The position numbers were made by a program, and so were the translations under genes. Of a stretch of 64,000 nt of DNA, positions 17,071 to 50,569 are shown piece after piece; within the stretch, counting starts at the first letter, position 1; the number at the start of each line of letters is the position of its first letter. This DNA is from Acanthochlamys bracteata (Eukaryota; Streptophyta; Magnoliopsida; Pandanales; Velloziaceae), in assembly GCA_019914995.1 (NCBI GenBank), contig CM034141.1, positions 5,372,001-5,436,000 of the forward strand, read 5' to 3'. A model generated the notes under the pieces. That model worked only from the letters and a program-made list of their open reading frames with translations. It had not been told where the DNA came from and made no database searches.

Positions 17071-17146
<76 letters not shown>

Positions 17147-26100: not shown

Positions 26101-29100
26101 AAACTCATGCTGGCAATGCTAAATGGAGACGAGAGGTTTGTAGAGCCATCTCCGCAATCATTGCAAACTTTGACTTTGGAAACAGTAAAAGATGCTGTGA
26201 TGAGTCAGTTTGTTGCAGACAACATGGAGGTCTGTTATGCATCTTCTCAAATTTTTTATATTACTTGCTGATGATTTTTGCACGGCTCTTATTCTTCTAG
26301 TTTTTAATCTGCGTCTTTGCATTCAGATTTTGAATTGCAATCATCTGTGTCTGAAGGTATATTTAATTCTTCTGCCTGACATAACTTATTCATTTACTCA
26401 GGTCAGCATTGTTGGGGATTTTGCTGAGGATGAGATTGAGTCATGTATTCTTGACTACCTTGGAACTATCAGAGCTGCATCTAGAGATAAATCTAAACAC
26501 TTCATTGAGCCCATTTCATTTCGGCCATTTCCATCTGATCTTCATTCCCAGCAAGTATGAAGCGGCAATCTTGTTAATCCTATTTAACTTTCCTAGTGTT
26601 TATTATTTTTATATTTTCGTTTTGGTTAGATTATTTCAAAGCTCATTTGGGAATATTTGTTTCCCTGCAAGTGTAATCTATATGCTGTGTCAACTGCTTA
26701 TAGCTCTTGACTACTGTTTTCTATTTCATTAAACTTAACAACCACAGTTATGTATAATTTAGCTAGTATTAATTCTCAAGTATTAGCAGTTTTGTTGCTA
26801 GAACTGTTTCAAATATTAATGAAATTCTCAAGTTTGCTTCTGTTGCAGGTTTTTCTGAAGGACACTGATGAAAGAGCATGTGCATATATTGCAGGACCTG
26901 CACCTAATCGCTGGGGATTGACTTTTGACGGAAAAGATTTGTTTGATTCCTTGAATAGCTCAACAAAAGATGGTAAAATGTTGTTTGCATTTCTGAAACA
27001 TCCTTTTTCCTTTTCTTTGCTCCATCTTTCTGTCCTCATCCTTTTCTTGCATTTTCCCCTTTGTTTGCTAGTCTGTTTTTAAGTCAGAGGCAGCTAAAAG
27101 AAAGGAATATATATTTCTCATTGTTTAATGTGAATGGGTACATGCACTGCTGATTTTATGCTTAGATTTGTAAGAACCGGTGCCTTGAGAAATGCATTCA
27201 TACTCAATAACATGATAATGCCAAAGAAATTTAGCAAGCCTTATTTAGTTACTACAGAGTTCTCTATGCAATGGAGTGAATATCAGATGATCTGAAGTTC
27301 AGGATTTTATTGGCCCATTTCTGATTACTAGCTTCACTGACTACCAGTTAAATGTACCACCTTAATATAGTGTGAAAGGATTTTCTAACTATTAATTTAC
27401 ATGTGCTTTCACAACTTGTATTTCTAATGTGCTCTGTATATTTAGTTGGAATTAAAAGTGACATGTTGTATACTAAATGTTTCTAATGGATGGAGAATGT
27501 GACGTCTTCTTTGCAGTTTAATTCTAAATGAGTTTTGGAATGCAGATGAAACAACCATATCAGATGGAAAACTTTCTGTGGAAGGATCTGATGAGAAGGG
27601 TAAACCTGAAAGAAGTGTACGAAGTCATCCGCTGTTCTTTGGCATCACACTGGGTTTGCTTGCTGAGATTGTAAATTCTAGGTATCCTGCTATTACAAAA
27701 TCCTCCTAATAAGTTTTATTTCTAGTATTGTAAAACAAGTAGATATCGTCAAGTTATGCACCTCAAATTTGGTTAGGGGGCTTTGTTCCGGTTTCTTTCA
27801 TCTGACTCTGCAGGTTTCAGTAGAAGGTTTTCCTGTACTCATCTTAGAACCTTTATTTGAACTAAAGACTACTGGCAGTTCACAACCATGCTGTAGCACC
27901 ACTAATATTTTCAGTTTCGAATCAGTATCTTCAAGCAAATAAAAGCTTTCTAGATTTTCAAAATAGGTATAATATTGTAAAAGCCTGATCATGATCATGG
28001 CTAGACAAAGTTAATGAAAGTTGATTTTGACACTACTTGCATGCAGCAGTTAATAATATATCAATTTGGTGTTTCATGTTCGATTGTGTTCAGGCTCTTC
28101 ACGAATGTCAGGGACTCCTTGGGATTAACATATGATGTATCCTTTGAGTTGAGCCTTTTTGATCAATTAAATTTTGGGTGGTATGTGATCTCAGTGACGT
28201 CCACTCCAAGCAAGGTATCTCACCTGAAGATTACATTTGAATCTTTGTACTGTCATTTCTTTAAAATCTTGATACAGTTATGGGCCTTCATTATCATTGG
28301 TAGGTTATCAAGGCTGTAGATGCATGCAAGAACGTGCTTAGAGGCTTAAAGAATAACAAGATTGTACAGAGGGAGCTTGATAGGGTCAGTGGTCTATTCT
28401 TTTCCTTGATGAATGTCTACATATTTTTACTGCTTCTGTTCGTTAAGTTATGAAACTTGAAAATACATAAAATGCTCTCTATCAACAAGTGCCTAGCAAC
28501 TTTCTACTGACCTCGTACTCAGTTTAACATGTAGTGTTGTTGTGATGATCTGTTTTAAAAAATAACTCTTTACCCTGCCGTTTTTTATGAAGAATCTCAT
28601 TTGCCAGTTCTCTACTGATCAACTTGAAAGATAAGCAGCCATGTTGGAATTTAATAGCTTAATGAAAATAGTCAGCAATGTCTGGTCTTGACGTTTGATA
28701 CATTTTTGAATTAAAACGTCGTACTTGTAAGAAACAACACATTTACCATGTATCAGTGAAGTTAAAGTAATTTATTAGGACATGCTTTCAGTTATTTCTT
28801 AATAACTTTTAAGATGCTAGCCTGTAATTCCAAATCCATCCTTTACCAATGAACTTTTTCTGAATCCATCCTTGAAGTGTTGAATAGATCCCCAAGATCT
28901 CAGTGGTATTCTGTTAATTAGTTACCTATTCTTTTCCCATTCTAGTACAAGGTGTGACTTTTAGTTACATCTTTTTGTATACCTAGATAGAGGTTTGTAT
29001 GCTTTCTTGTATTATCTTTTTGATTATAAATCAAGAATGTAGATTAAAGTAACGGCATCCTTGTAAGTAGTTGTAAGTATCTCGGGAGCTACTAACATAA

Positions 29101-31089
29101 AATGTTCTATCCATGCAGGCGAAAAGGACATTGCTGATGAGGCATGAAGCTGAATCCAAGTCAAATGCCTACTGGTTAGGATTGCTTGCTCATTTACAGG
29201 CCCAATCTGTACCAAAAAAGGTAAGCATAAGCTGTGCAGTAAGTTTGCTTATGTAGTCCTGTAGCTGTAAGGAATCTGACAATACTGCTAAAACCATTTT
29301 AATCATAGCATTCTAGTTTCAGGAGACGGCTTGTTGCTACTCACTAAAATGACTAGTAAGTCATAGAGGAGCCCACCATGGCTTATCTGTACGTGAATGT
29401 AGTGCTTTTCCAGCTAGTAGGATGAATTGTCTTCATGTACACAAGCGTGCTTATTGTAAGTGTAGTTATGGCAAGCAATCTCCACAAGCTACTTCTCCAA
29501 TCTCATCAGCTCCACAACTTGGTTAAAATTTTCTAATGTATGAACAAGATCTAGAGATAAATTACTATTTATTGTCTTTAGGACTTATTACATAGAAAAC
29601 CCTAGAGAGTTTACCTGTTAAGATGAAAACCAATAGAGTGGAATTGGGATATGAATGTATTAGAATGTGATTCTAATAGAACTGATATTGCGAAGGATGT
29701 AGGTTATGTTGTCGGTGCGTTTTCATACCCTGTTATCATAAGATTAAGGTGTCTATGAAAATCATCATAAGAATTCACTTTCACTGGCTATTAGTTTTTG
29801 TTATCTCATCTTAAAGTAATGCTTGACAATTATGCAATTCCTTTTCTTTTACTCCGAAGGATATTCATGATTTTATGCCTATTAAATTCAGGATTTATCT
29901 TGCATTAAGGACCTTACTTCGCTGTATGAAGCTGCAACGATTGATGACATATATCTTGCCTATGAGTTTTTAGAAGTGGATGATGCTTCTATGTTTTCTT
30001 GTGTTGGTATAGCTGGTGGCCAGACTGGAGAGGAGATCTCTGGTAAGATAACCATAAATGTTTCAGCTCTTACAAATGCTTTTAAGGATTTTGGTAGTTA
30101 TCAAATATTCATCTCTTTTGGTAGTGTTATATGTAAATTGTGTGGAAAGAGAAATAAACGAAGATTCTTTTCTACCAATAACTACTTAGATTAATATCCG
30201 CTATGCCAAAGACCAAGCTTTCTATGTTTTACAATCCTTTTCTCTGTTCCAGCATAATAGTCGTCAATGCATTAGTGACCCTATCAACTTGTTGCAATAA
30301 GGGTTTGGCTGAGACTTGCTCCTGCTGCTGCCTGTTATATTTGCTACTTTTGACATCTCCTGCTGCATTCTTATGGTAAAAGTTTTCCAGTGTCTAAAGA
30401 TCAGCTAGCAAGGAATGTATTAAGTGCAAGGTATCCATAACTCATTATAATGTGGTTGCATAAAACTGGAAACAGGTTTTGTGCATCTATTAATAGCAAC
30501 AAGCTACACAAAAATAACATCTACTTCTCTGGTGCACTCTATAGATGTTATTGTGTGACCTATATCACTTGAACAAAGTCTGAGGAATGTCAAACCGACT
30601 TTGCAGATTATTAGACTTAGGTTTTGTTATTTGCATTCAGCATGGTGAATAGAGTTGGAAGATATACTACAAGTTGCCTGAATCCATGTTGCCTGAACTC
30701 GTCGTGTTATTTATCAAGTTTAAGTAGGAAGCTAATGCATCGAGCATGCCATGCTTTTTGTTGGACAAATTAATGTTTTAATGCTTCAGGGTTTCTGCTT
30801 CTTAGCATTAGAAACCTTTCTGTACCTGGATGAGCACCGTCTTGTCATTACAAACCTATTGTATTTGCTAAGTTGGATCAAATGCGTTCTCAGTAGTATC
30901 TTTTTCTGTACTGCCTGTCAACTCTTTCTCAATGCCTTTATTTTGCATGATGTTATTATTGTTTATTTCTATGCTCTTGACGCCATCTTAGGTTCTGTTC
31001 TGGTAGATGAAGAGGAAGCAGATGTTGACATTCCAGGGTTCAGTCATATTGGTCGTGGGCTGTCAACAATGACAAGGCCTACGACATGA
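15566..31089 (+). CDS. SPP: Stromal processing peptidase, chloroplastic (M16 zinc metallopeptidase), 24 exons
   Basis: Cleaves transit peptides from proteins imported into the chloroplast stroma. Exons: 15566-15735, 16557-16719, 17304-17545, 18824-19022, 19596-19643, 20694-20801, 20892-21080, 21176-21472, 21850-21951, 22187-22321, 22755-22979, 23107-23310, 23994-24164, 25133-25282, 25449-25586, 26002-26229, 26402-26554, 26849-26972, 27546-27681, 28094-28214, 28304-28384, 29119-29220, 29892-30042, 30992-31089. Phases agree throughout and give 1244 residues, close to the Arabidopsis protein (about 1265). The inverted zinc motif HXXEH is HMIEH at residues 215-219. The tail ends in TMTRPTT as in Arabidopsis SPP. 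The first ~110 residues are Ser/basic-rich and form the predicted transit peptide; exons 1-2 are the least certain. Intron 6 begins with GC instead of GT. A further intron (31185-31293) lies in the 3' UTR. The gene appears intact. Confidence 0.95.
17075..17138. repeat. (CT)n microsatellite in SPP intron 2
   Basis: A pure CT run of about 32 units, followed by interrupted CT/GT sequence to about 17160. It lies upstream of exon 3 in intron 2 and is likely polymorphic in length. Confidence 0.95.
18176..18423. mobile_element. MITE family 1, copy C, in SPP intron 3
   Basis: About 248 bp, left end GGGGGCGTTTGGGAGTGCTT, right end GGAAAGCAATGCCAAACGACCCC. ATG flanks both ends, consistent with a 3-bp target duplication. 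It shares the GCAATAAAAAGATCT and GTAGAATTTTTCTA core with copies A and B. It sits between exons 3 and 4 of SPP and does not disturb any exon. Confidence 0.85.
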
Positions 31090-32173
31090 TGCTTGGCATC
31101 TCGGAGCTGTCCATTATCTTCATTGCAAAGAAAACATTACCAGCAGTTTTGTGTATATCTACCCTTGGTGTGCTTCCATCTACAGGTACACCTTCATGGT
31201 AGCATGTAGTCACATAGTTAGGTATTATTATATTCTATTTATGTTTCGTGCTTGTGTTCAATCTGATGATAGTCAACTTATTTAACAATGCAGGGAACTG
31301 GAGGTAGTGCAGTAGAGAACTGATTTGGGCTATGTATAGACACTAAACAGTAGGTGACCGCTAGCAGGTTGCTAACCAGGATCAAGGATCGGAGGGCCTA
31401 GCCGCATAGATTCTATAATCTTGGGAAATTTCAAGCTCTAATCTTCATAGGAAGCCCTGGTGTAGCTTTTTAATGATTCAAGAAGTACAGCCAGTGTGCT
31501 ACAACATTTTTCCTTCTATATTGATATGCATTCTATTTTATCGATTTGTTATTCCACTGTAGTTTATCATTTGTCCTAATAAAAAAGACGCCATGTTTTC
31601 AACAAAGGCAATATAATCTCATGAGCCATAGTGTTGTTCTGTTGCAGATTTTCTGAAAATCGTGTTGTTTGTTCTTCATGCGGATGCACCTTTCCAAGCG
31701 ACTAGAGTGTACTTGAGCAATTTGTCATCTACTCGATCAAAAATTCTTTTGAGATTGTCGTCCAACTAATAAGAAATTCGTGCTTTGATATTTTGTTACT
31801 GAGCATTTAAGTTCTACATGGAGCTCTTTCTTGTAGGTTTATATCAACTTCTAACCTGCTTGTATTATTGTCTGGCAAAAGTCACCCCTGTAAAGAAGTT
31901 GAAAGAACTGGGAATCTTCATCATAGTTTAAAGGGCTCTCAAAAGGTGAAGTCGTGCTTTTGCTACGATCCTTTTTCTTTCATTATCTATCAAATCTGAA
32001 GGATGTATTTGCCACGATTCTCCACTGGCCTATCAGGTTCTTGACGAGAAGGACGCAATTTCCTCACTCTTTCATTTATCTCAGTCACATGAATATATCC
32101 TGTACCTTTCTTCCCTCATAAGTTAATACCTCTGTATCTTGTTCGTCATTCTCTTCAGCTGCTCTTGTTCAAC
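31090..32173 (+). other. SPP 3' untranslated region and upstream region of NLR1
   Basis: 31090 to about 31600 is the SPP 3' UTR, with an apparent intron at 31185-31293 (CTACAG/GTACAC ... AATGCAG/GGAACTGG) and an AATAAA-like signal near 31578. 31600-32173 is the spacer and leader of NLR1. This whole interval is repeated with divergence at 41.3-42.3 kb and 46.7-47.8 kb. Confidence 0.65.
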
Positions 32174-35100
32174 ATGGAAGTTGCCGGTTGGGTAGTAGCT
32201 CCCGTTGTCTCAAAACTCACAGAAAGCTGCATATCCATCTTACGAAGCCCATACAAGCATTTCACGAATACCAACGACAACCTTGAAAAACTTCGACTCA
32301 TCCTGACTGAGATCTTAGGCATTGTTGCTCAACTGGATCCACACTCTATCGAGAAGATTTGCTGGACGAGTTTGAGTACAGAGTGAAAGAAGCAGAAAAG
32401 AAGAAGAGCAAAAGCACTGTGAGTTATTTGGCCTCATCTTCATCTTATTTTGTGAAACAAATTACTGGTTTCGATAGTCTCCCTAAAAGACTTGCAAATA
32501 TAGTGAACAAGTTAGAAAGAATGAAATCCAGTGCTCTTAACTTGCACCAAATTAATAGCAAAGATACCAGTAGTACTACTGCAGCACAACCATATGGAAC
32601 TGGTTCTCGGAGGATTACAGGGGCTGTTATGGGCAAAGATGTTGAGACTGAGATCTTTGGTCGACAAGTAGAGAAGGAAAACATAGTTCAGCAATTACTG
32701 TATGAGCCAAACGCTGATGACAACAGAACCACTCCTCTTGTCATCTCGATAGTAGGCATTGGAGGCATGGGAAAGACCACCTTAGCTCAGTTGGTGTACA
32801 ATGATGATAGTGTCACTAATTATTTCGACATAAAAGTATGGATCTGTGTATCAAACAATTTTGATGTTATCAAGCTGACAAGGGAGATACTAGAATCTGT
32901 TTGCAAACATGATCCAAAGAGTGAGGATCTTTCAGATATTGCAATGTCGAGAAACGCAATGACAGATGTGATGCCCCGAGAGAACAATCTTACTACCCTC
33001 CAAAACAAGCTGAAAGCCAACTTGGAATCTAAAAAACTTTTACTTGTTTTGGATGATGTATGGGACGATAAAGATGGAACACAACTGGAACAAAGTGAGG
33101 CCTGGAAGAAGCTGTTAGCCCCTTTGAAGCATGCATCAATCATCTGCAAGATCCTAGTGACTACTAGGATTGGTAAGGTAGTACAAATGCTGGATACATC
33201 ACATATTGTTCCTTTAGATGGTCTCAGTAATACCGATATTTGGCTCCTATTGAAACATCATGCACTTGGGAATACGCAACCATCAAATATTTTGCAGCTT
33301 GAAGAAATCGGAAAAGAGATTGCAAATAAGTTAAAAGGGTCACCACTAGCTGCTAGTGTTATAGGCAGTATGTTAAAAGGAAAGTCAGATGTCAATGACT
33401 GGAGAGAACTTTCGAAAAAAGACTTGTCTAGTGAAATCATGCCTATTCTGAAATTGAGTTACATGCACTTGCCAGATCATCTCAAGCAATGCTTTGGTTA
33501 TTGCAGCCTCTTTCCAAAAGATTGGCCATTTGATCCGAAAGATTTAGTTCGACATTGGGTTGCTCATGGTTACGTTCAGTCACAGAACAATGATTCAAAG
33601 GAGATGAAAGAGTTAGGAAGAACGTACTTCAATGATTTGTTGGAGAGGTATTTCTTTCAAGCCATAAGAAAAGATTCCACAGTGACATATGTTATGCATG
33701 ATCTAATACATGATCTTGCTGAATCCGTCTCCCGGGCTGAGTGTTATAGGATTGATGAAAAATGGATACAACCTAAAAATATTGCTCCGGTTCGTCATCT
33801 TTCTATTTTTCTTCATTACGGCAATGACTACGAAAGTTTTTGCAAGATTGTAGCTAAATTGAAGAGTCTGGAGTTGGAGAAGCTTCGCACTTTGATTGTT
33901 TCTTCAGATCGGAGCTTTAAGTCTATTGAAATTGAAGAGTTGATTAGATTATCAAAGAACGTCCGCGTCCTTTCTCTCAACAATATTGAAATGCGAGTCT
34001 CACATAGGTTTGATCATTTATTACACTTACGTTGTCTACAATTGCACCGTGACTATCCCTCTTATGAAGTTGATGATGTTGCAAAAGCCGCATCTCAGTT
34101 ATACCACCTTCAAGCAGTAAGTGTATTGAAAGTTGGGGTAAGTGGGGCTACAACAAAATTCCTTGAGCGGTTAGGCGCACAAACTCTCATAGCACAAGAT
34201 ATTAAAGTGGCACTTCGTGATGTTCCTATGGATCAATTCTTGAGTTGGACGGAAAAGGAATGGTTCCGCAACATACGAGACATTCAATTGCGTGGATCCA
34301 GGACATGGGAGCATCTACCGCCGCTTGGAGATCTGCCTCTCCTAGATCATTTACATATCCTTGACTTGTCTCTAGTAGAGAATATTGGTGAGGAGTTTTA
34401 TGGGAGCAGCCACAACGAGAGGGTGAAGGGCTTTCCGTTACTTGAGACTCTAACTATACGGCACATGTCCAAATTATCAAAATGGTCCTTCGTTGCAAAC
34501 TATCCATTGTTTCCTTGCCTAGGTTCTGTTTATATTGAAGAATGTCCAGAATTAAAATCAGTGGAGGGATTACAATCTCTCGTCTCTCTAAAGAGGTTGA
34601 TTATTCGGAAGTGTCCCAAATTGGAAGACGACGGTGAGTCCACCTTACCCTCCTCATTGGAGTATCTATTAATTAAAGATTGTGGAATCACAGATGGGTG
34701 CCTGTCGAGATGGCTTCAAGGACTCTCCTCTCTTTCTGAACTGAGGATAGATAGTTGTGATCAGTTAACATCCCTTCCTCCCGCAACGGTGCTATACGGA
34801 CTCACAGCACTTCGGGAGTTGGAAATCAATGGAAATGAAAAGCTCACATCTGTCGGGGGTTTACAATCTTTCATCTCTCTGAAGAAGTTGGCGATTTGGA
34901 GGTGTCACAACTTGAAAGACGACGGCGAGTCCACTCTGCCCTCCTCTTTGGAGATTATGCATGTTGGGGTTTGTGGAATAACATATAGGTGCCTGTCGAG
35001 ATGGCTTCAAGGACTCTCCTCTCTTTCTAAACTGGAGATAAGTAGTTGTCATCAGTTAACATCCCTTCCTCCCGCAACGGTGCTACACGGACTCACAGCA

Positions 35101-35866
35101 CTTAGGGAGTTGCAAATCAATGGAAATGAAAAGCTCGCATCTGTCGGGGGTTTACAATCTCTCATCTCACTGAAGAAGTTGGCGATTTGGAGGTGCCACA
35201 ATTTGGAAGACGATGGCCACGCCACCCTGCCCTCCTCGTTGGAAACTCTGAACATTTGGAATTGTGGAATAACAGATGGGTGGCTGTCTAGATGTCTTCG
35301 AAGACTCTTCTCTCTTTCTGAACTGTGGATAAATGGTTGTGATCAGTTAACATACTTTCCTCCGGCAACGGTGCTGCACGGACTAACCGCACTTAAGAAT
35401 TTGCAAATCTCCAAAAATAAAAGGCTTGCATCAATAGAGGGGTTGTACGCTCTCATCTCTCTTAAGACGTTACGAATCCTTGAAAATAGAAGTCTTGCAT
35501 CAATAGAGGGGTTGAATGCTCTCATCGTTATTGAGGATTTGGTCATAAGATTTTGTCACAAATTGAAGACACTATCATCGGAGCGTTTGCCTTCATCGAT
35601 CAAATTTCTTGATATATATGAATGCCATCCCGAGCTGATGAAGCAGACGAAAAAGAAGAGGGGTCCTGAATGGGACAAAATCTCTCACATACCAAGGTAC
35701 GTCATCTCTGTCTCTCTCTCTCTCTCTCTTTCTTGTTTGCTGATTTTTAACTTTAATTCATATCGATTACAAATGTAGGCCTGAAATTGCGTGGCGTATG
35801 GAGAGGTTACCCGCTGAACGTCGTCGTCTCATTTTACGGGTTATTGGCGAATTTCATAGAATGTAA
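32174..35866 (+). pseudogene. NLR1: CC-NBS-LRR (RGA-like) disease-resistance gene with frameshift in the CC domain
   Basis: The ATG at 32174 opens the same N-terminus as NLR2 (MEVAGWVV...) but the frame stops after 70 residues at 32386. Compared with NLR2, 55 bp are missing after about 32355, between short AGAA repeats, removing the EDVID-like DAEDLL region and shifting the frame. From there a second frame is open to the intron donor at 35696/35697. It has P-loop GIGGMGKTT, kinase-2 LLLVLDDVWD, RNBS-B ILVTTR, GSPLA for GLPLA, RNBS-D CFGYCSLFPKD, VMHDL for MHD, then the LRRs. An intron (35697-35778) leads to a last exon ending at 35866. The first ATG in the long frame is at 32521, inside the CC region. 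NLRs are cytoplasmic immune receptors; this one is probably a pseudogene unless an internal start makes a CC-less NB-LRR protein. Confidence 0.85.
34567..35439 (+). repeat. Three tandem 291-bp LRR modules in NLR1
   Basis: The same 97-residue block starts at 34567, 34858 and 35149. Each begins with G-LQS-ISLK and contains TLPSSLE, CGIT, LSRWLQ, and PPATVLHGLTAL. The exact 291-bp spacing preserves the reading frame. Shortened half-units follow to about 35600. Confidence 0.9.
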
Positions 35867-37460
35867 TTGGACTCTGTTGTCGTGCGAATGGGAATTTTAT
35901 TTCTTCACTGTTTGGTGGTTTCATACTTTCATGAAGTTGTTGTAATATTAATTAGTCTACTTTCTTCTGTGAGATAAGTTTGTTGTAATAAAGCGATAGC
36001 AGTACGTTTGGCTTGCCAAAATATATATTCGGCCCTGCTGCATCTTATTTATATAATGTAGTGTTTGGTGTGTCATAAAATTCCTCGCTGGAAACTGGTT
36101 TTATGTTCTGCTGCTTATGTAGTGTAGACATGATGAAATTCCATGCTGGTTGGTGTTTGAACTCTGAGCTTACTTGAAGGATTGAAGCTCACCTTGCATG
36201 TGTTTTTTTGTGATCCCTCCTATCTATTGCAAGATTAACTATATAATTTATCTTCATTTATTGATTTTTATTTATTTCACTTAATTATGTTACCCTCTCC
36301 ACACAACTTTGTTGTTCCAAATTATGCATAACTTATTTGCTGTTTTGTTCATAGAGTTGGTTTATGATTTCGACAACATATACACATAATTTAAGCCACC
36401 AAGCCTACTATCGTCAAGCGCCAGTTTTGTTTAAGTGAAATAAACAATACAGCATCCAACTGCTTTGACTTCAATTTGAAAATTATAAGTATAAAATGCG
36501 TTTCCAGGTTACCATAAAAGCAGCAAACAAGAAAGAGAGAGAGATGCGGTACCGGTTACTTCATTTCAAAGGTTACATCATCTGACTACATTTTATTTCA
36601 TATTTTTAAATAAATATTTTATAATATTTTATTTAAAAATTTAAAAAATATAAAATTTTTTATATTATAATATTTTATTATTATTTATTTTTATTTTTAA
36701 AATAAAAAAATAACATCCCTATTTTAAAATAAAATAAATTATTTTTTGTTTTAAAAAAAATTTATTTCAAAAATACCTCATATCTCATCGCTCATTTTAA
36801 ATATTGTTGGCAAATCTATTTTAATGTAATTGAACTCTATTGCCGTGTCCGTGGTTGGGATTTTATTTTTGAATGTTTGGTAGTTTCATAAATTTGTTGT
36901 AATACTAATCTACTTTTTGCTCTGTGCGATAAGTTTGTTGCAATAAAGAGATACTAGTACGCTTGGGTTGTCAAAACATATATTCGGTATTGCTGTATCT
37001 TATTTGCATAATACAATGTAGTGCTTGGTGTCGCATAAATTTCCAAACTGGAATGAATGAGTAAATACTTTTTCAAGAATACAAGTGGTGATGTGCTGAT
37101 TTCTCACTTCTGAGATCCCTCCACTGCTTTATGCTATTTATTTTGGAAATAAATAAACTGGTTCATGTTTTGCTTATGTAGTGTATGCAATTCCATGCCG
37201 GCGTTTGAACTCTTAACTTACTTGAAAGGATTGAAACTCACCTTCAACGTATTTTTTGTAATCCGTCCTATCTAATTCATGATTAACTATATAAATTTAT
37301 CTTTTATTGATTGATTTTCATATATCTTTGACTTAAATGAACTATCCTCTCCTAAATTTTGCTTTCCAAATTGATGTATAATTTGCTGTTTTATTCATGA
37401 GTTGGTTTATGACTTCAACAACAAAGCTTACTATCGTCATAATTTGCTCTTTTAGGAGCT
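35867..37460. repeat. Two tandem copies of the NLR1 3' flank
   Basis: 35845-36400 and 36800-37440 are diverged copies of one sequence. Both have TGTAATTG.ACTCT, GATAAGTTTGTTG.AATAAAG, ATATTCGG and AGTTGGTTTATGA in the same order. A shorter version follows NLR2 at 45470-45560. Between the copies, 36590-36790 is an instance of the recurring AT-rich element. No coding region. Confidence 0.75.
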
Positions 37461-38365
37461 TAGGGTTATTGCTGAAATAAGTGGTTTATTGTTAAAGATC
37501 GTTTTCCAAAAATTTCATTTCACCAAAAGCACATTATCTTCAAAAGTTTCTCTTTTAAGCAACCCAAAAAAATGTCTTTATTCATCCAAAAATCTTTTCA
37601 CTTATTATAAAAATTATATATAAAATAATTATTATGAAGTACAATTTATTTATGCTTTTTAAAATTGGAAATACTTATAAGCTAGAAAAAGTATAAATAA
37701 TTGAAATATCTTTAGTATATAATAGGTAATATATGTTAAATTTATAAATTTTTCATATATTTTGCTTGAATATATTTTTAAAAGTATATTTAACTTTTAA
37801 ATGCCTTTTTAAGTTAAAAACTAAATACTTGACATTAATTTTTAATTTTTGTAAATTTTTTTCTTATAATTAAAACTTATAATAAATTATAAATGTTTTT
37901 AAAATTAACAATTTATGAAGAATAAGTAATATTTGTAATTAATATTTTGTGAATACCTTCAATCTCTGTTTGGATATTTTAATAGTAATACGATCATAAT
38001 TAACAGAGATTGCTTAGACAATCAGCAATTTTAATTTGTAAAATCTTTTAAGAAGTTTTTTAATTTATAAATTTTTTTATAATTAAGTTTTAATGCAAGC
38101 TTCAGTTGTTGAATAACTTTTTTAAATTCGCAATATAGAAACATAGCATAGCGGAGTTCATAACAAAATCTGCAACAACAATATAGAAAACATATGTGGG
38201 TACAATCACAGAAGTAAATTGAAGACTACTTTAATTAAGCAGTGAAAAGACATATATTCTCATATGAAAAAACCCTACAAGAATTTCGGAAATAAACATT
38301 CACTACTAGCATTTGTCTATCCTGAAATAGTTCATGATTAATTCAGTCAAAAATTTTCTTTACAG

Positions 38366-38480
38366 CTACTTGTTCTTCGCAGGTTTAACTCTTAAAAAGC
38401 AAAGCTTTTCCTTGGCCTTCTGAATCTTCATGACCGTCTTGACAATCTTCTGCTCCTTAACCAAGAAAGCTTGAATGGTC
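38366..38480 (-). pseudogene. RPL34: Ribosomal protein L34 last exon, remnant
   Basis: On the minus strand an AG acceptor (GTGCAG) is followed by an exon encoding TIQAFLVKEQKIVKTVMKIQ, then KAKEKL, and ending in a TAG at 38366. This matches the C-terminus of cytosolic 60S protein L34 (consensus AFLVEEQKIVKKVLKIQKAKEK). The tail differs, with an extra stretch to PAKNK. A possible upstream exon remnant lies near 38728-38780 (minus: TTTCAG/AGAGCC ... GTAAGT). The conserved N-terminal part of L34 is not found, so this is a partial copy. Confidence 0.72.
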
Positions 38481-38984
38481 CTGCACAACAACATATCAAA
38501 AGTTAGAGATTCATATTAGAGAAAATTTAATCTTAGAAAACTATCACAACTGTAAAGGAAGCATTCAAATAGTACGAATATCTACAAAACCTACACAGTA
38601 ATTTTAATCACAATGACCCTGAGTCCTTATTTGTTCCTAGTATTCTTCAAGTATAATGTACGTCCAACATTTTCACTCTATCAGCAAACAACTATAGGGT
38701 AAGATAAATAGCAAGATTCACACTTACAATTTGGACATCAACTGCAGTAGATTGTGAACAATTCCTACATTGGCTCTCTGAAACAACAAAAAAGCGAAAG
38801 AACAAAAAAATTCTTATTTTGATAAATTTTACAACATGGCTCAGCATGAACTGGTCGCCGAACTGGTCGTCTATAATCCTAAAAATAATTTAGAAGGAAA
38901 TCTTTCAATGAGCTCACACATAATAAGCTAATCTATTTAACAACTTAATATCATGATTGTGAACTAATAAAAGAAATCAAACGG

Positions 38985-39540
38985 AGGGCCGCCAGCAGCT
39001 GCGTCGCCGGAGCAGCCGCCCCTTGCAGCAGATAGAGCAAACACAACAAAATGAGCGCAAAACAGAAGTGTATTGATTGAGATAGAGTTTTACATCATTA
39101 TATAGTATTAAATATATATAATTAATATATCTTAACAATACTAATAAATTTAATGATATCTAATAATGATATCATTAAAAAAGCATCTCATATGATTAAA
39201 AACGAAATTCGAAGAAAAAGACAAGTTTTAAGAAGTGTTAAAGAAAATATTTAATCCCACATTGCTTATCAATAATTCTGATATGATATTAATAAAAATT
39301 TGGGCTCACTCTTTTTATAGACAATTAGTTTTGACAAAAATCTTAAATTCGTCATATAGTATTAGAACGGACTGGACCGATCTGGCCCGACCATAAAATA
39401 TAGATTAAATTTAACGTTATTATCCATATCTATTCAGAGTCTTTATGGTCCGTTTTATTTCAAGACAAAAGTAGCTCATTTTATTTCAGGATAGATAGCC
39501 TGTTTTAGAATTCTAAGTTCGTCACAAGAAGTATGAAATA
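38985..39540. mobile_element. Degenerate LTR-type (copia or TRIM-like) remnant
   Basis: A short GC-rich island (38985-39045) is followed by AT-rich sequence, then TTTAATCCCACATTGCTTA, GGGCTCACTCTTTTTATAGAC and TAGTATTAGAACGG. The last resembles a degenerate primer-binding site for initiator-Met tRNA (TGGTATCAGAGC), a common layout at the 3' edge of plant LTRs. The 39330-39530 part has a weak relative at 50830-50960. No coding region or paired LTR was seen. Confidence 0.4.
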
Positions 39541-39859
39541 AAACAAATTTAGAAAAATCATGTGCCAACTCTCTCTCATTCATTTCGAGCGTATTTATCA
39601 ACTTTCAAATTCACTTTTTTTTAAACTTATTTTTAAATTAAAATAAATATAAAATTTAAGATAAAGTTCTTTAAAAATTTAAATAAAAATATATTTTTAG
39701 AAAATAAATATTAAATTTATTTTATTTAAATATTTAAATTTAATGTTTATAAATTTGCTTTTAAAAAAATGAGTTTATAATAAAGTAAACACGCATTTAC
39801 ACTAAAGAAATTGTCAAAAGTAAACTTCATTTCAATTTTTATAAACTCTTGAATATTTT

Positions 39860-41715
39860 TAGATACTAGCCTGCAAATTTCTCCTAGTCCATGCTTTACC
39901 AGTAAACTTTTCCTGAATCCATCCTCTTAAGTGTTGAATAGATCTCCAAGATCTCAAGGTATCCTGTCAATTAGTTACCAATCTTTTCCCGTTCTAGAGT
40001 TCAAAACATGGCGTTATCAAGGGAGTAGATCAAAGTAATTAAGTCCTTGTAAATAGTTTGTTACTGTTAATGATACCATGCTCTGAAATATCTTGTCATC
40101 TTAAAGTAATTGATCATTATGTTCAATTCTTTTTCTCTCTCCGAAGGATATTCATGACTTTGTGCCTATTAAATTCAGGATTTATCTTGCATTAATAAGG
40201 ATGTTGTACGAAGCTGCAACGACTGAGGACATATATCTTGCATATGTGTTTTTAAAAGTGGATGATGCTTGTATGTTTTCTTGTGTTGGTATAGCCGGTG
40301 GCCAGACTGGAGAGATCTCTGGTAAGACAAGCAGAAATGTTTAAGCTCTCACAAATGCTTTTAAGGATTTTGTAGTTATCGAATATTCTTCTCCTCTTTC
40401 GGTAGTGTTATACGTAAATTTTGTGGAAAGAGAAACAAAAGAAATTTCTTTTCTACTAATAACTATTTAGCTTAATATCAGCTATGCCAAAGACGAAGAT
40501 TCTATGTTTTAGAATTCTTTTCTCTGTTCCGGCATGATAGTCGTCAAGGTACTGCATTGGCGACCCTATCAACTAGTTACAGTTAAAGTTTTGGCTGAGA
40601 CTTGCTCCTGCTCCTGCCTGCTATATTTGCTACTTTTGGCATTGCCTGCTGCATTCTTATGGTAAAAGTTTTCCAGTGTCTAAAGATCAGCTACAAGGAA
40701 TTTATATGTGCAAGGTATCCATAACTCATTATAATGTGGTTGCGTAAATCCGAAAACAGGTTTTGTGCATGTATTAATAGCAAAAAGCTACACAAAACTA
40801 ACTTCTACAAAACTGCTTGCTTGTCCGAGGGTATACTGTAGATGTTATTTTGTGACCTATATCACTTGAACTAAGTCTGAGCTTTTGCAGATTAATAGAC
40901 TTGCGTTTTGTTATTTGCATTCAGCATGGTGAAAAGAGTTGGAAGAAACAGCGCAAGTTGCCTGAATCCGTGTTGCCTGAAATTGTCTTGTTTATCAAGT
41001 TTAAGTAGAAGCTAATGCCATCAAGCATGACATGCTTCATGTAACCTTATTGGAAAATTGCTTCTGGGTTTCTGCTTCTTTAGCATTAGAAACCTTTCTG
41101 CACCGATGAGCACCATCTTGTCATTACAAACCTATTGTATTTGCTAAGTTGGATCTAACGCGTTCTCAGTAGTATCTTTTTCTGTATCTGCCTGTCAACT
41201 CATTGTGAATGCCTTCATTTTCCGTGATGTTATTATTCTTTATTTCTGTGCTCTTGATGTCATCTTAGGTTCTGTTCTTGGAAATGAATAGGAAACAGAT
41301 GTTTACATTCCAGGGTTCAATCATATTGGTCGTGGTTGTCAACAATGACGAGGCCTACGACATGATGCTTGGCATCTCGGAGCTTATCCTCATTGCAAAG
41401 AAAACATAACCAGCTGTTTTGTGCATCTCTCCCCTTGGTATGCTTGCATCTACAGGTACACCTTCATGGTAGCATGTAGTCACATATTCTATATTTGTTT
41501 CGTGCTTTTATGTTCAATCTGATGATAGTGACCTATTTAACAATGCACAGACGGGAGGTAGTGCCGTAGACACTAAACAGTAAGTGACCGCAAGCAGGTT
41601 GCTAACAAGTATTAAGGATTGGAGGGCCTAGCCGCATAGTTAGGTGTCATTATATTCTATTTATGTTCCCTGCTTCTAGGATTTAATCTGATGATAGACA
41701 ACTTATTCAACGATG
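39860..41715 (+). pseudogene. SPP 3'-end fragment 1 (copy of intron 21 to the 3' UTR, exon 22 missing)
   Basis: Collinear with 28810-31390 of the real SPP gene. It contains a copy of exon 23 (40180-40322: encodes IYLALIRMLYEAATTEDIYL, with a shift relative to SPP), intron 23, a copy of exon 24 (about 41270-41363) with an in-frame TAG after GNE and a 1-base loss near the end, and the 3' UTR with its intron. The 29.0-29.8 kb interval that includes exon 22 is deleted. It cannot encode a peptidase because the catalytic half is absent. It lies directly upstream of NLR2, exactly as the real SPP 3' end lies upstream of NLR1. Confidence 0.9.
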
Positions 41716-42293
41716 CAGGACATGCAAGGTAATGGTAGAGAAGTGTTGGAATTCAAACAAACAAACAAACAAACAAGGTGCTTTGGTATTGCCATTTATT
41801 GATGACCACTTCTGCTACCTAGTCGTCCAATACACGCACAAAAATAACAAAGTAAATTGTGAATCCTTAAGAGTGCCTAAAGTGGTTTCGTCGGCCCATT
41901 ATGGAAATTTTAGCAGGAGACTGCAATTTTCTCAGATCCATTTTGAACTTGTTATCTTGATAATATTTCGTGGACTGGTCCCTACCGTGCTCTTGATACA
42001 AGTTAGAAAAGTTTATGGATTTAGCTCCGCATCTGAGGGTATTGTGGAATTGGGATTTTAGAATTAGAGTGTTAGTAAAGTCTTTGGTTTATTTTTTGTT
42101 TGGCAGTTCCACAAATTTGTTTGTAATAAACTGTCCGGAGTGATGCTTCATAAATTTGACTTGTTTAAACTATGTCTTTTTTATGGTTAATTCCTCTCAA
42201 TCACATGAATATATTTTGTACCTTTCTTCCAACCCTCAAAAGTCAATACCTCTCCGTCTTGTTCATCCTTCTCTTCTGCTTTTCTTGTTCAAC
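41716..42293 (+). other. Upstream region of NLR2
   Basis: Contains a (CAAA)n run at about 41755-41776 and a segment (42040-42150) weakly like the NLR1 3' flank. 42190-42293 closely matches the NLR1 leader (TCACATGAATATAT ... TCTTGTTCAACATGGAAG). The reading frame of NLR2 is open upstream of its ATG, but the homologous stretch in NLR1 is not, so I treat it as leader. Confidence 0.5.
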
Positions 42294-45200
42294 ATGGAAG
42301 TTGCCGGTTGGGTAGTCACTCCCGCTCTCTCAAACCTCATAGAAAGCTGCATATCCATCTTACGAGGCCCATACAAGCATTTCATGAATACCAGAGATAA
42401 TTTTGAAAAGCTTCACCTCATCCTGACTGAGATCTTAGGCATCGTTACTCATCTGGATCCACACTCTATCGAGAATCAACACCAGAATCTGTGGCTTCGA
42501 GGGATCAAAGATGCAGTCTATGATGCAGAAGATTTGCTGGACGAGTTCGAGTACCGAGTGAAAGAAGCAAAAGTGAAGAAGAGCAAAAGCACTGTGAGTT
42601 ATTTGGCATCATCTTCATCTTATTCTGTGAAACAAATTACTGGTTTCGATAGTCTTCCTAAAAGACTTGCAAATATAGTGAACAAGTTAGAAAGAATGAA
42701 ATCCAGTGCTTTTAACTTGCACCAAATTAGAAGCAGAGATACCGGTAGTACAAGTGCAGCACAGCCATATGGAATTGGATCTTGGAGGATCACAGGGGCT
42801 GTTATGGACAAGAATGTTGAGACTGAGATGTTCGGTCGAGAAACAGAGAAGGAAGGCATAGTTCAGCAATTAGTAGATGAGCCAAACACTGATGACCACA
42901 GAACCACTCCTCTTGTCATCTCGATAGTAGGCATTGGAGGCATGGGAAAGACCACCTTAGCTCAGTTGGTGTACAATGATGATAGGGTCACTAATTACTT
43001 CGACATAAAAATATGGATTTGTGTATCAAACAATTTTGATGTTATCAAGCTGACAAGGGAGATACTAGAGTCTGTGTGCGAACATGATCCAAAGAGTGAG
43101 GATCTTTCAGGTATTGCAATGTCGACAAACGCAATGACAGATGTGATGCCCCAAGAGAACAATCTTACTACCCTCCAAAACAAGCTCAAAGCCAACTTAG
43201 AATCTAAGAAACTTTTACTTGTTTTGGATGATGTATGGGACAATAAAGATGGAACACAGCTGGAACAAAATGAGGCCTGGAAGAAGTTGTTATCCCCTTT
43301 GAAGCATGCGTCAATCATATGCAAGATTCTAGTGACTACCAGGATAGATATCGTAGCACGAATGCTGGATACAACACATATTGTTCGTTTAGATGGTCTC
43401 AGTAATACCGATATTTGGCTCCTATTGAAACATCATGCACTTGGGAATACGCAACCATCAAATATTTCCCAGCTTGAAGAAATCGGAAAAGAGATTGCAA
43501 AAAAGTTAAAAGGGTCACCACTAGCTGCTGGTGTTATAGGCAGTATGTTAAAAGGCAAGTCAGATGTCAATGACTGGAGAGAACTTTCGAAAAAAGACTT
43601 GTCTAGTGAAATCATGCCTCTTCTGAAATTGAGTTACATGCACTTGCCAGATCATCTCAAACAATGCTTTGGTTATTGCAGCCTCTTTCCAAAAGATTGG
43701 ACATTTGACCCGAAAGATTTAGTTCGACACTGGGTTGCTCATGGTTACATTCAGTCACTGAACAAAGATTCTAAGGAGATGGCAGAGTTAGGAAGAAGGT
43801 ATTTCAATGATTTGTTGGAGAGGTATTTCTTTCAAACCATAAGAAAAGATTCCACAGTGACATATGTTATGCATGATCTAATGCATGACCTTGCTGAATT
43901 CGTCTCCCGAGGTGAGTGTTATAGGATTGATGAAAATTGGAAAGAACCAAAAGACATTGCTCCGGTTCGTCATCTTTCTATTTTTACTTCTAATAGAGGC
44001 ATGAGCAAGATTGTAGCTACATTGAAGAAGAAGAGCAAGGAGTTAAAGAAGCTTCGCACTTTGATTGTTTGTTCAGTTGTTTATTTAGATTCGAGTAGGG
44101 CTATTGAAATTGAAGAGTTGATTAGATTATTAAAGAACTTGCGTGTCTTTTCTCTCAAAAGAAGAGGAAGAGTTGGAAGAGTCTTACTCAGGTTTGATCA
44201 CTTATTACACTTACGTTATCTTCAATTGGACGACTATCTCGATAATCAAATTGATGATCTTGCAAAAGCTACATCTCAATTATACCACCTTCAAGTAGTA
44301 AGTGTACCGAGAGTTACGATAAGTGGGACTACAAAATTCTTTGAGGGGTTAAGCGCACCAACTCTCATTACAAACTCTATTGATGCGGCACTTTCTGGTG
44401 TTCCTATAGATCAGTTCTTGAGTTGGACGGAAAAGGAATGGTTCCGCAGCATAGGAAAAATTAAATTGCGTGGATCCAGGACATGGGAGCATCTACAGCC
44501 GCTTGGAGATCTGCCTCTCCTAAATTGTTTAAGTGTGCAGGAGATGTCTCTAGTAGAGCGTATTGGTGAGGAGTTTTATGGGGGCAACCACAACGACAGG
44601 GTGAAGGGCTTTCCATCACTTGAGTTTCTATTGATAGGAAATATTCCCAAATTATCAAAATGGTCCTTCGTTGCAAACTATCCATTGTTTCCTGGTCTAT
44701 CTTCTATTTGTATTGAAGATTGTCCAGAATTAAAATCATTGGAGGGATTACAATCTCTCGTCTCTCTAAAGGGTTTGGTGATTCTGGGTTGTCACAATTT
44801 GAAAGACGGCGGCGGGTCCACCCTGCCTTCCTCGTTGCAATCTCTAGAAATTGAACATTGTGGTATAACGGATGGGTGCCTGTCGAGATGGCTTCAAGGG
44901 CATTCCTCTCTTTCTAAACTGATGATAGATAGTTGTCACAATTTGAAAGACGACGGCCGGTCCACCCTGCCTTCCTCGTTGCACTCTCTGGAAATTGGAC
45001 ATTGTGGAATAACAGATGGGTGCCTGTCGAGATGGCTTCAAGGACTCTCCTCTCTTTTTGAACTAGAGATATATAGATGTGATCAGTTAACATCCCTTCC
45101 TCCGGCAACGGTGCTGCACGGACTCACCGCACTTCGGAAATTGCGAATCCGCAAAAATGAAAGGCTTGCATCAGTGGAGGGAGTGCACGCTCTCAGCTCT

Positions 45201-45383
45201 CTTAGGGATGTGTTCATAGGGTCTTGTCCCCAATTGAAGGCGCTGCCATCAGAGCGTTTGCCATCATCGGTCGAAGTACTTATGATGTGGGAATGCCATC
45301 CCGAGCTGATGAAGCAGGTGAAAGAGAGGAGGGGTCCTGAATGGGACAAAATCTCTCACATACCCGCAATTTCAATGGTTTGA
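42294..45383 (+). CDS. NLR2: CC-NBS-LRR (RGA-like) disease-resistance protein, intact
   Basis: A single exon of 1029 residues starting MEVAGWVV, the start shared with NLR1. Residues 1 to about 170 form an Rx-like coiled-coil domain with the EDVID-type motif VYDAEDLLDEF. NB-ARC: P-loop GIGGMGKTT at 213-221, RNBS-A WICVSNNFDV, kinase-2 LLLVLDDVWD with the Asp pair at 312-313, RNBS-B ILVTTR, GSPLA near 407 in place of GLPLA, RNBS-D CFGYCSLFPKD, and MHD at 526-528. Leucine-rich repeats run from about 560 to 1010, with a 48-residue internal duplication. The protein stops at SHIPAISMV, without the extra C-terminal exon of NLR1. Family knowledge: cytoplasmic immune receptor that binds ADP/ATP and triggers hypersensitive cell death; the pathogen recognised cannot be told from sequence. 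Confidence 0.95.
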   Translation: MEVAGWVVTPALSNLIESCISILRGPYKHFMNTRDNFEKLHLILTEILGIVTHLDPHSIENQHQNLWLRGIKDAVYDAEDLLDEFEYRVKEAKVKKSKSTVSYLASSSSYSVKQITGFDSLPKRLANIVNKLERMKSSAFNLHQIRSRDTGSTSAAQPYGIGSWRITGAVMDKNVETEMFGRETEKEGIVQQLVDEPNTDDHRTTPLVISIVGIGGMGKTTLAQLVYNDDRVTNYFDIKIWICVSNNFDVIKLTREILESVCEHDPKSEDLSGIAMSTNAMTDVMPQENNLTTLQNKLKANLESKKLLLVLDDVWDNKDGTQLEQNEAWKKLLSPLKHASIICKILVTTRIDIVARMLDTTHIVRLDGLSNTDIWLLLKHHALGNTQPSNISQLEEIGKEIAKKLKGSPLAAGVIGSMLKGKSDVNDWRELSKKDLSSEIMPLLKLSYMHLPDHLKQCFGYCSLFPKDWTFDPKDLVRHWVAHGYIQSLNKDSKEMAELGRRYFNDLLERYFFQTIRKDSTVTYVMHDLMHDLAEFVSRGECYRIDENWKEPKDIAPVRHLSIFTSNRGMSKIVATLKKKSKELKKLRTLIVCSVVYLDSSRAIEIEELIRLLKNLRVFSLKRRGRVGRVLLRFDHLLHLRYLQLDDYLDNQIDDLAKATSQLYHLQVVSVPRVTISGTTKFFEGLSAPTLITNSIDAALSGVPIDQFLSWTEKEWFRSIGKIKLRGSRTWEHLQPLGDLPLLNCLSVQEMSLVERIGEEFYGGNHNDRVKGFPSLEFLLIGNIPKLSKWSFVANYPLFPGLSSICIEDCPELKSLEGLQSLVSLKGLVILGCHNLKDGGGSTLPSSLQSLEIEHCGITDGCLSRWLQGHSSLSKLMIDSCHNLKDDGRSTLPSSLHSLEIGHCGITDGCLSRWLQGLSSLFELEIYRCDQLTSLPPATVLHGLTALRKLRIRKNERLASVEGVHALSSLRDVFIGSCPQLKALPSERLPSSVEVLMMWECHPELMKQVKERRGPEWDKISHIPAISMV
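44791..45078 (+). repeat. Two tandem 144-bp LRR modules in NLR2
   Basis: The block beginning GTCACAATTTGAAAGACG at 44791 recurs at 44935, exactly 144 bp (48 residues) later. Both encode CHNLKD-G-STLPSSL ... CGITDGCLSRWLQG. The frame is kept. Confidence 0.9.
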
Positions 45384-45582
45384 CTTCTGGAGAGGAGGTA
45401 CTCCGCAACTCATCGCTCATTTCAAGGTTGGTTTGCTGGCGACCGTAAGGTTGTTGGTTCGCAAATTTATTTGAAGGTAATTGGACTCTATTGTCATTGT
45501 GTGATTGGGAATTTTATTTCTTCACTTTTTTATGGTTTCATAAATTTGAAGCTATAGTCATCTGCTTTCTTTTCCCATTCTG

Positions 45583-47830
45583 TAAATTAGTTAATAGATC
45601 CTCAAGATCTCAGTGGTATTCTGCTAATTAGTTACCAATCTTTTCCCATTCTAGAGTTCGAATCATGGCGTTATAAAAAATGCAAGATTAAAGTAATGAA
45701 GTCCTTGTAATAGCTTGTTACTGTTAATGATACCATGCTCTGAAACATCTTGTCATCTTAAAGTAATTATTGATCATTATGTTTAATTCTTGTTCTTTTT
45801 GTTAGAAGCATATTAATAGTATAGCCGGTGGCCAGACAGGAGAGGAGATCTGTGGTAAGATAAGCAGAAATGTTTCAGCTCTCACTAATACTTTTAAGGA
45901 TTTTGGTAGTTACCGAATATTCATCTCCTTTTTCGATAGTGTTATATGTAAATTGTGTGGAAAGAGAAAAAAAAAAGATTCTTTTCTGCCTAACTACTTA
46001 TTAGCTTAATATCAGCTATGCCAAAGACCAGGCATTGTTATGTTTTACGATTTTTTTCTTTGTTCTGGCATGATAGAGTCTTCAAGATACCGCATTACGA
46101 CGCTATCAATTCGTTAACTATGACGGTTCGGTTGAAACTTTCAAGGCCCATCGGTCGAGATCAAAACAAGTTACTGATCTATTCCTAAATTGGCTAATCT
46201 ATATTTTATTTGAATATTATTTTTAGACTCTTTCGCTACTAATTTGAATCTAATCTAATCTTATTTACCAAGTTTTAGTAGGAAGCTAATGCCATCAAGC
46301 ATGACAGTAACCTTATCTGACAAATTAACGTTTTAATGCTTCTGGGTTTCTGCTTTTTTACATTAGAAAGGGGCTTCTGGGTTTAGGCTTCTTTACATTA
46401 GAAACCTTTCTGTACGTACGTGGATGAGCACCATCTTATCTTTACAAATCTATTGTATTTGCTAAGTTGGATCTAATGTGCTTTCAGTAATATCTTTTTC
46501 TGTATCGGCCTGTCAACTCATTCTGAATGCCTTCATTTTCCATGATTTTATTATTGTTTATTTCTATATCTCCGCATAATCTCAGGTTCTGTTCTTGCAG
46601 ATGAACAGGAAGTAGATGTTGGCCTTCAAGGGTTCAGTCATATTGGTGGTGGCTTGTCAACAATGACAAGGCCTACGACATGATGCTTGGCATCTTCAAT
46701 CTGTCCATCATCCTCATTGCAAAGAAAACATAAGCAGCTGTTTTGTGTATATCGACCCTTGGCATGCTTGCATCTAGAGGTACATCTTCATGGTAGCACG
46801 ATAGCCACATAGTTCGGTATCCTTACGTTCTATTTATGTTTCCTGCTTTTAAGTTATAATTGTGATCGGCAACTTTTAATAATGCAGGGCAAGGGAGGTG
46901 GTGTGGTAGAGAACTGATTTGGACAAAAGTATAGACACTAAACAGTTAGTGGCAGGATCAAGGATCGGAGGCATAGCTGCATAGACTCAATAATCTAGGG
47001 AACTTTCAAGCTCCAATCTTCATAGGAAGCCTTGTTGCTGCTTTAATGATATTCAAGAATTGCACCCTGTGGTTCTTCACCGTTTTTCCTTGTATATTGA
47101 TGTGCATTCTATTTTATCCATTTGTTTTTCCACTGATACATCATGATTAATTTGTTCTAATGGCAATAGAATCACATGAATCATAGTTTTCCGTTGCAAA
47201 TTTTCTGATATCTGGTGTTAGTTCTTTATGATTGCAGCTTTGGAAGTGAGTTTACTTAAGATTTCTCATCTACTCAATGATCAGAAACTCTTTTGAGATC
47301 ACTGTCGTCCAATTAATAAGTTTATGCTTTCATATTTTGTTACTGCATTTTTAATGTCTAGAAGGAACTCTCCCATGTAGGTTATATCAATTTCTAAACT
47401 GTTTGTATAAAAAAAGTTGAAAGAAAACTGCTGCTCTTGGGAATCTTTATCCTCGTCTTAAGTGAGCAGGAATTATTTACGAAATATAATTTTTTTAAAA
47501 TAGAAAATACTTTTATTATTTTTTAAAAATGAGTTTTATTTTTTTATTTTAAAAAATAATAATAATATATAATAAAAATATTTCATTATATATAATTTTT
47601 TTATATTTTTAAAATTTTTAAATATATATATAATATATTAAAATATATAAAATAAATTGTCTGTTCCTTGCTTGCATATTTTAGACTTGCGAACATGAGC
47701 TCATGCTTTTTGCTACATTCTTTTTCTTTTCTTATTTCTAATTGTAAATTGTCAGTTCGTTACTCGGTATCAATTCTTGAAGTGAAGGCTGTATTTGCCA
47801 CGATTCTCCACCGGCTTGGCTTACCAGAAA
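45583..47830 (+). pseudogene. SPP 3'-end fragment 2 plus NLR upstream DNA, without an NLR
   Basis: Third copy of the SPP 3' end. It keeps part of the exon 23 copy (about 45813-45855, encoding AGGQTGEEI), intron 23, an exon 24 copy (about 46587-46682) and the 3' UTR with its intron. The first part of exon 23 is missing. After an AT-rich insertion (47480-47650), 47650-47825 matches the NLR upstream sequence at 31950-32040 (GTATTTGCCACGATTCTCCAC). The match then ends and no NLR coding sequence follows. Fragments 1 and 2 share GAGTTC.AA.CATGGCGTTAT and GTTACTGTTAATGATACC, which are absent from the parent, so they descend from one intermediate. Confidence 0.85.
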
Positions 47831-48349: not shown

Positions 48350-48357
48350 GAAAAAAT

Positions 48358-50561: not shown

Positions 50562-50569
50562 ATTACAAT

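Follow-up and report, generated by a model that had tools for sequence, protein, structure and literature searches.

How does a cluster of immune-receptor genes come to be interleaved with pieces of an ordinary housekeeping gene? The question is raised by a locus of the plant Acanthochlamys bracteata, where the 3' end of the gene for the stromal processing peptidase (SPP) recurs next to two CC-NB-LRR genes of the nucleotide-binding leucine-rich repeat receptor (NLR) family. The stretch of DNA analysed, in the following called the window, is 64,000 nucleotides long (C16:5372001-5436000) and belongs to a genome of 195.5 Mb in 557 contigs. Self-comparison of the window gives the order T0-NLR1-T1-NLR2-T2 on a single strand, where T0 is the tail of the functional SPP gene and T1 and T2 are its copies. 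It is clear that T1 is a mosaic with a T2-like left and a T0-like right part, which meet at about 29.83-30.07 kb in T0 coordinates, and we favour with moderate confidence an explanation where the neighbouring housekeeping gene's tail, present as direct repeats, allowed the cluster to expand by unequal recombination.

The SPP gene, its tail copies and the two NLR genes

The SPP gene is located at 16474..31086 on the plus strand, as are the tails, the NLR genes with their flanks and the segments X1 and X2 described below. Residues 59-1275 of the Phoenix SPP protein P0124 align in order over this region with small gaps (tblastn), the exon pieces contain Pfam M16 domains, and the alignment reaches the last residue of P0124, 1275, at the conserved C terminus GRGLSTMTRPTT. 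By this alignment the gene is intact and complete from residue 59 of the palm homologue through the C terminus, and a putative transit-peptide exon probably lies near 15560. Among the best 120 of 785 protein matches the highest score belongs to Lupinus (70% identity) and the highest identity to date palm (80%). When the genome was searched with the C-terminal 243 amino acids of SPP, 9/9 matches fell in this window and none elsewhere. The end of the last intron together with the start of the last exon (T0 30820-31029) is found with 83-84% identity at three dispersed loci, C12:4529628, C12:2091213 and C7:3296801, which by eye also have common non-SPP sequence adjoining the SPP piece, as if fragments of SPP had been captured and formed a small family.

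T0, the part of SPP that recurs, spans 28811..32049 by self-comparison and alignment and comprises an intron, the last three exons, the 3' untranslated region and the 3' flank. Both copies are truncated and have the same orientation as the gene: the pseudogenic T1 (39856..41639) is located between NLR1 and NLR2, and T2 (45575..47842), by its distances the most diverged copy, follows NLR2. The earlier note on this DNA had claimed that the tail recurs twice, and the self-comparison bears this out with collinear matches on the same strand, placing the copies within about 100 bases of where the note had put them. T1 is matched by 28807-28945 (39856-39997, 84%) and 29806-31409 (40096-41639, 84%), and T2 by 30007-30317 (45819-46140, 82%) and 30707-31865 (46261-47408, 77%), with E-values in the window self-comparison as low as 0. 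T1 proper stops at 41639, leaving T0 31410-32049 without a counterpart in the alignment, and a partial second piece then runs to about 41750. This piece, T1b (41639..41752), is equivalent to T0 31216-31322 and is nearest to T0, with identity in 88/108 columns compared to 82/113 for T2 and 61/87 for T1. The last exon of T1 contains an in-frame stop and a frameshift, while that of T2 is still an open frame.

Most of T0 28947-29790 is gone from both T1 and T2, and the two copies carry similar replacement sequence in its place. The deleted stretch includes the SPP coding exon AKRTLLMRHEAESKSNAYWLGLLAHLQAQSVPKK at 29119..29221, identified by alignment and by tblastn with residues 1159-1201 of P0124. 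A counterpart of the exon exists in palm SPP; the exon is thus ancestral and its loss derived, so that T1 and T2 have a common ancestor at the deletion. Since a lost coding exon cannot be the ancestral condition, it serves as a directional marker for the events at this locus.

NLR1 occupies 32052..35775 (ATG at 32174), including some 120 bp of 5' flank typical of the family, and NLR2 with about 100 bp of such flank occupies 42190..45383 (ATG at 42294) and has an open frame of about 1030 amino acids, both delimited by alignment and Pfam. On the same strand NLR1 32071-34758 matches NLR2 42187-44936 with 86% identity in the self-comparison. NLR2 has the Pfam domains of a CC-NB-LRR protein (RGA/R13L1-like), namely an Rx_N coiled coil, NB-ARC, a winged helix and leucine-rich repeats (LRRs). 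The coiled coil of NLR1 is interrupted at about 32351 by a 55-bp deletion with a frameshift; the remaining frame is open, and a Pfam scan of the piece downstream of the frameshift found NB-ARC, the winged helix and LRRs. Among the best 120 of 4,720 protein matches the best-scoring named one is from date palm, with 40% identity. Relatives of the two genes are present elsewhere in the genome, on the same and on another chromosome, at C16:5095415 (79%) and C18:5142242 (77%) and as a fragment at C16:4802041, so that parental or sister copies exist in the sense of Woodhouse et al. (2010). Internal tandem LRR modules have a period of about 291 bp in NLR1 (34557-35526) and about 144 bp in NLR2 (44788-45080), which indicates that the two LRR ends have expanded differently. 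By self-comparison the 3' flank of NLR1 (35782..37430) is tandemly duplicated, 35821-36378 resembling 36785-37423, and contains a high-copy element at about 36590-36776, and the 3' flank of NLR2 (45384..45561) is shortened and abuts T2 directly.

T1 joins two parental tails

T1 and T2 have the loss of the exon in common, yet over most of its length T1 is nearer to T0, and this combination is what makes T1 a mosaic. Blocks a, b and c, which lie to the left of the break, provide 155 columns, where T0 is the odd sequence at 22 sites, T1 at 9 and T2 at 7, and T1 and T2 differ in 16/155 columns. To the right of the break (920 columns) the corresponding numbers are 40, 54 and 95, with all three different at 8 sites. 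Comparing T0-odd and T2-odd sites on the two sides gave a Fisher p of 1e-5, or 2e-5 with blocks b and c only and 0.002 with blocks a and c. The T0 part of block b falls within the deletion and was positioned by hand. A maximum chi-square test located the break at 30071/30074 in T0 coordinates (permutation p 0.0002, or 0.002 without block b); restricted to the left and the first right blocks it gave 29828/29835 (p 0.002), and the right part alone showed no break (p 0.37). Because the blocks were picked after the alignment had been viewed, the p values for the mosaic should be read as guides. The excess of T2-odd over T1-odd sites to the right of the break, 95 vs 54, has a p of 0.001. With the C12 fragment as a fourth sequence the informative sites over about 200 bp group T0 with T1 three times, T0 with T2 once and T1 with T2 never, which is weak but has the same direction as the mosaic. 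The idea in the earlier note that SPP fragments allow the history of the NLR array to be read has proved sound, as the mosaic in T1 and the common exon loss order the events.

Ages, junctions and competing histories

Over 993 three-way columns the Kimura two-parameter (K2P) distances are 0.121 for T0-T1, 0.174 for T0-T2 and 0.196 for T1-T2. By block, T0-T1 ranges from 0.105 to 0.153 and T0-T2 from 0.151 to 0.220, and in the 3' flank 31410-31865, which is absent from T1, T0-T2 reaches 0.259. For NLR1-NLR2 the synonymous divergence (dS, NG86) is 0.115 in the nucleotide-binding site (NBS, 380 codons), 0.166 in the middle LRRs (233), 0.268 in the LRR end (228) and 0.171 overall (944), and the respective YN00 values are 0.093, 0.137, 0.168 and 0.137. 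The T0-T1 distance is thus similar to the dS between the NLR genes, and on these distances NLR2 and the right part of T1 appear about equally old and T2 appears older. A common origin of T1 and T2 in the event that gave NLR1/NLR2, with T0 outside, was rejected since the K2P distances disagree with it. The divergence of the two NLR genes is greater in the LRRs than in the NBS. As point estimates, the nonsynonymous divergence (dN) exceeds dS in the middle LRRs (0.211 vs 0.166, NG86) and, by YN00 only, in the LRR end (0.231 vs 0.168), and is below dS in the NBS (0.051 vs 0.115). For the coiled coil, NG86 gave a dN of 0.107 and a dS of 0.146.

The junctions show where the NLR sequence begins. The 5' flank common to NLR1, C18:5142242 and C16:4802041 starts at about 32052 (by eye on the alignment), and the similarity between T0 and T2 extends to 32037-32049. 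T2 thus matches T0 up to the NLR start point and then runs on into single-copy DNA without an NLR. The first part of this DNA, X2 (47843..48354), showed no NLR similarity in sequence searches and is the proposed ancestral SPP 3' flank, an empty site. No remnant of an NLR3 was found after T2 by tblastn with both NLR proteins against the window and two 10-kb neighbours (E<1), and on this result a third NLR lost after T2 was rejected as the main model. A short segment between NLR1 and T1, X1 (38868..38953), is 79% identical to 50601-50687 downstream of T2 (E 3e-14), a score reached by 0/500 dinucleotide shuffles. The true dinucleotide shuffle was used since a shuffle of two-base blocks was lenient: the AT-rich stretch next to the segment also beat all 200 of those. 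No further copies of either X segment were found in a genome search of limited sensitivity, where the 79% partner itself was not recovered, and an alignment of 39108-39374 to 50584-50848 (62%) was set aside as AT-rich noise. The likeness of the X segments suggests, from sequence comparison, that NLR1 interrupts a tail and flank that T2 keeps unbroken. The distance between tail and NLR varies. It is about 125 bp from the end of T0 to the ATG of NLR1 and about 190 bp from the stop of NLR2 to the beginning of T2, both inside the roughly 500 bp that would be expected on either side of a transposed gene by the pattern of Woodhouse et al. (2010), and about 4 kb, with repetitive and unrelated DNA in between, from the stop of NLR1 to the beginning of T1.

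The history that we propose would begin with the arrival of an NLR-family member about 1 kb past the stop codon of SPP. A duplication of the SPP 3' end and some downstream X sequence to either side of it would have led to SPP/T0-N-(X)-T'-X, and T' would then have lost the coding exon. In a second step a single unequal exchange between T' and T0 on different chromatids, near 29.83-30.07 kb, would have produced T0-N1-T1-N2-T2, where T1 combines the left part of T' with the right part of T0, T2 is T' itself and N2 is a copy of N1, so that a third NLR is unnecessary. The mosaic and the relative ages are observed; from the mosaic we infer an exchange between the repeats and not a conversion, and the way in which the first T0-N-T' arrangement came about is inferred as well. 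Later decay is evident in the exon loss in both copies, the stops in T1, insertions and deletions, the truncated 3' flank of NLR2, the unrelated spacer between T1 and NLR2 and the 55-bp frameshift deletion in NLR1, with SPP intact.

Several observations weigh against this history. Conversion of T1 by T0 would give an identical mosaic, and T2 may just evolve faster. Block a alone is non-discriminating (T0 odd at 4 sites and T2 odd at 2; Fisher p 0.08). As dS climbs from the NBS to the LRR end and the 3' flanks of NLR1 and NLR2 are 22% diverged, no single age fits the NLR pair; the 3' end of NLR2 may be older, or the NBS may have been homogenised by conversion. The spacer between T1 and NLR2 (41640-42190) is not the T0 3' flank that an exchange predicts, and includes just a 110-bp T0-like piece. 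The first 540 bp after T2 were not found beside NLR1 (score reached by 135/200 shuffles), and the stretch beyond 50687, which is AT-rich, has no significant match next to NLR1 (score reached by 210/500 dinucleotide shuffles), so that X1 rests on 86 bp.

A competing history, to which we give a modest chance, is that a unit of SPP tail and NLR was tandemly duplicated and then duplicated again (T0-N1, T1-N2, T2-N3), with a later deletion of NLR3. The order and orientation of the elements fit two such units, and NLR1-NLR2 and T0-T1 are similar in age. However, it would then be a coincidence that T2 stops no more than about 15 bp from the point where the NLR starts, the tblastn search revealed no trace of NLR3, the T1-NLR2 junction is unlike that of T0-NLR1, and an extra conversion is required for the mosaic in T1. 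Of the proposal in the earlier note that the tail was carried along as the duplication unit, the part that survives is that the SPP tail multiplied together with the NLR; simple serial copying is not supported in view of the mosaic T1, of T2 as the most diverged copy and of the lack of a traceable NLR3 behind T2. Similarly, T1 does sit upstream of NLR2 as T0 sits upstream of NLR1, but the join differs and the T0 31410-32049 part is lacking. A segment in the spacer upstream of NLR2, 42088-42128, resembles the NLR 3' flank at 36862-36904 and could mark an NLR lost between T1 and NLR2; its support is inconsistent, with the score reached by 0/300 shuffles against one flank copy and by 122/300 and 55/300 against two others.

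It is rather improbable that T1 and T2 are sisters from one later duplication, where T0 evolved slowly under constraint and T2 fast after silencing, and where the mosaic reflects rate variation or conversion. The exon deletion common to the two copies speaks for such a relationship, and T0, which is functional, shows fewer changes of its own on the right than the two copies do (40 vs 54 and 95). Against it, T0 is odd in 22/155 columns on the left and in 16/273 columns, largely from introns, that directly follow the break (p 0.005), whereas the trend for T2 is reversed, 7/155 against 30/273 (p 0.03), and the fourth-sequence comparison with the C12 fragment (three T0T1, one T0T2, no T1T2 sites) is weak and points in the opposite direction. 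An assembly artefact from unresolved haplotypes or a mis-joined contig is very improbable, as the copies are 11-23% different and have insertions, deletions and stops of their own, the contig is 7.2 Mb long, the window contains no Ns, and the divergence, for which the earlier note had proposed estimates per block as a check, amounts to a K2P of 0.12-0.26 and speaks strongly against an assembly duplicate.

Returning to the history with unequal exchange, it may be extended to a more speculative proposal that we regard as unlikely, where the SPP tail, a direct repeat on either side of the NLR, was not just a tag but the recombination substrate that doubled the gene, the SPP 3' sequence now is the upstream regulatory region of the NLRs (about 1 kb, 31087-32049, for NLR1), and T2 with its flank keeps the pre-NLR empty site in cis. 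The regulatory part of this proposal follows from the NLRs having kept just 100-120 bp of their own 5' flank.

Neighbouring sequence and comparison with known systems

Between NLR1 and T1, on the minus strand at 38165-38529, lies the tail of a ribosomal protein gene with 72-81% identity to a locus on C6, a second housekeeping 3' end in the cluster. From its sequence we take the product to be the cytosolic ribosomal protein L34; a 38-amino-acid piece of it gave no Pfam match. This gene was rejected as the source of X1 (38868-38953), since 2 kb from the C6 locus matched 38165-38529 only. Just downstream of T2 is a 2.2-kb palindromic element at 48355-50564, with arms at 48355-49131 and 49759-50564 that are 84% identical, and the X1 partner at 50601-50687 sits beyond it. 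Further downstream, all on the minus strand, are a repetitive LEA-like protein (52508-53155, Pfam score below the cut-off), an MFS transporter (59663-61387), presumably NRT2-like, and a receptor-like kinase (61756-63101) with a kinase domain in the open reading frame scanned at 62152-62652. The window gave no Rfam matches.

Since NLR duplicates change rapidly and recombine with one another, they seldom yield a clean order of events. The pieces of a constrained single-copy neighbour are markers of known direction, which make it possible to order the insertion, the first duplication, the unequal exchange and the decay within one locus. The merit of the locus is that this order is readable from one haplotype, with T1 visibly joining two parents, and it is an illustration that NLR expansion can rely on repeats that an ordinary gene has supplied, instead of transposons or the NLRs. 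In the tomato Cf-4/Cf-9 (Hcr9) clusters, fragments of a neighbouring gene have likewise been taken along in a resistance cluster: lipoxygenase gene sequences lie between genes for receptor-like proteins, which are not NLRs. Among the literature matches listed, judged by titles and the starts of abstracts, none appears to place SPP beside an NLR cluster.

Two published patterns appear to be united here. In the banana RGA08 cluster (Musa balbisiana, PMC3017797), a complete MTERF gene flanks the NLRs, which are interspersed with six MTERF pseudogenes and remnants; duplicated intergenic sequence is described as a site of unequal recombination, the MTERF remnants are ascribed to common duplication events, and diversifying selection is noted. 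The present locus is alike in that a complete non-NLR gene, SPP, borders the cluster with remnants between the NLRs, and in that a trace of exchange between repeats is present in the mosaic T1, which could also stem from conversion. It is unlike RGA08 in its two NLRs and three tail copies, read from one haplotype, and in that a hybrid tail is visible and a candidate for the empty site exists. In Woodhouse et al. (2010, PMC2869330), transposed Arabidopsis genes are often bracketed by direct repeats that are mostly gene sequence, and where these are longer than 30 bp they correspond in 13/18 cases to the orthologous A. lyrata site; the tabulated long repeats measure 30-550 bp, NB-LRRs are among the mobile families, and AT5G58120 is a listed TIR-NBS-LRR case. 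Our locus resembles those cases in that its NLRs belong to a mobile family and have paralogues elsewhere, and direct repeats of an unrelated gene appear to bracket the NLR. It differs in that our repeat, at about 2-3 kb, is longer and is old and eroded, and in that the gene which was inserted has doubled since; it was in their study that the repeat was looked for at the orthologous site in A. lyrata. The principle is thus an established one, and the SPP-NLR locus is a compact and well-preserved example of it.

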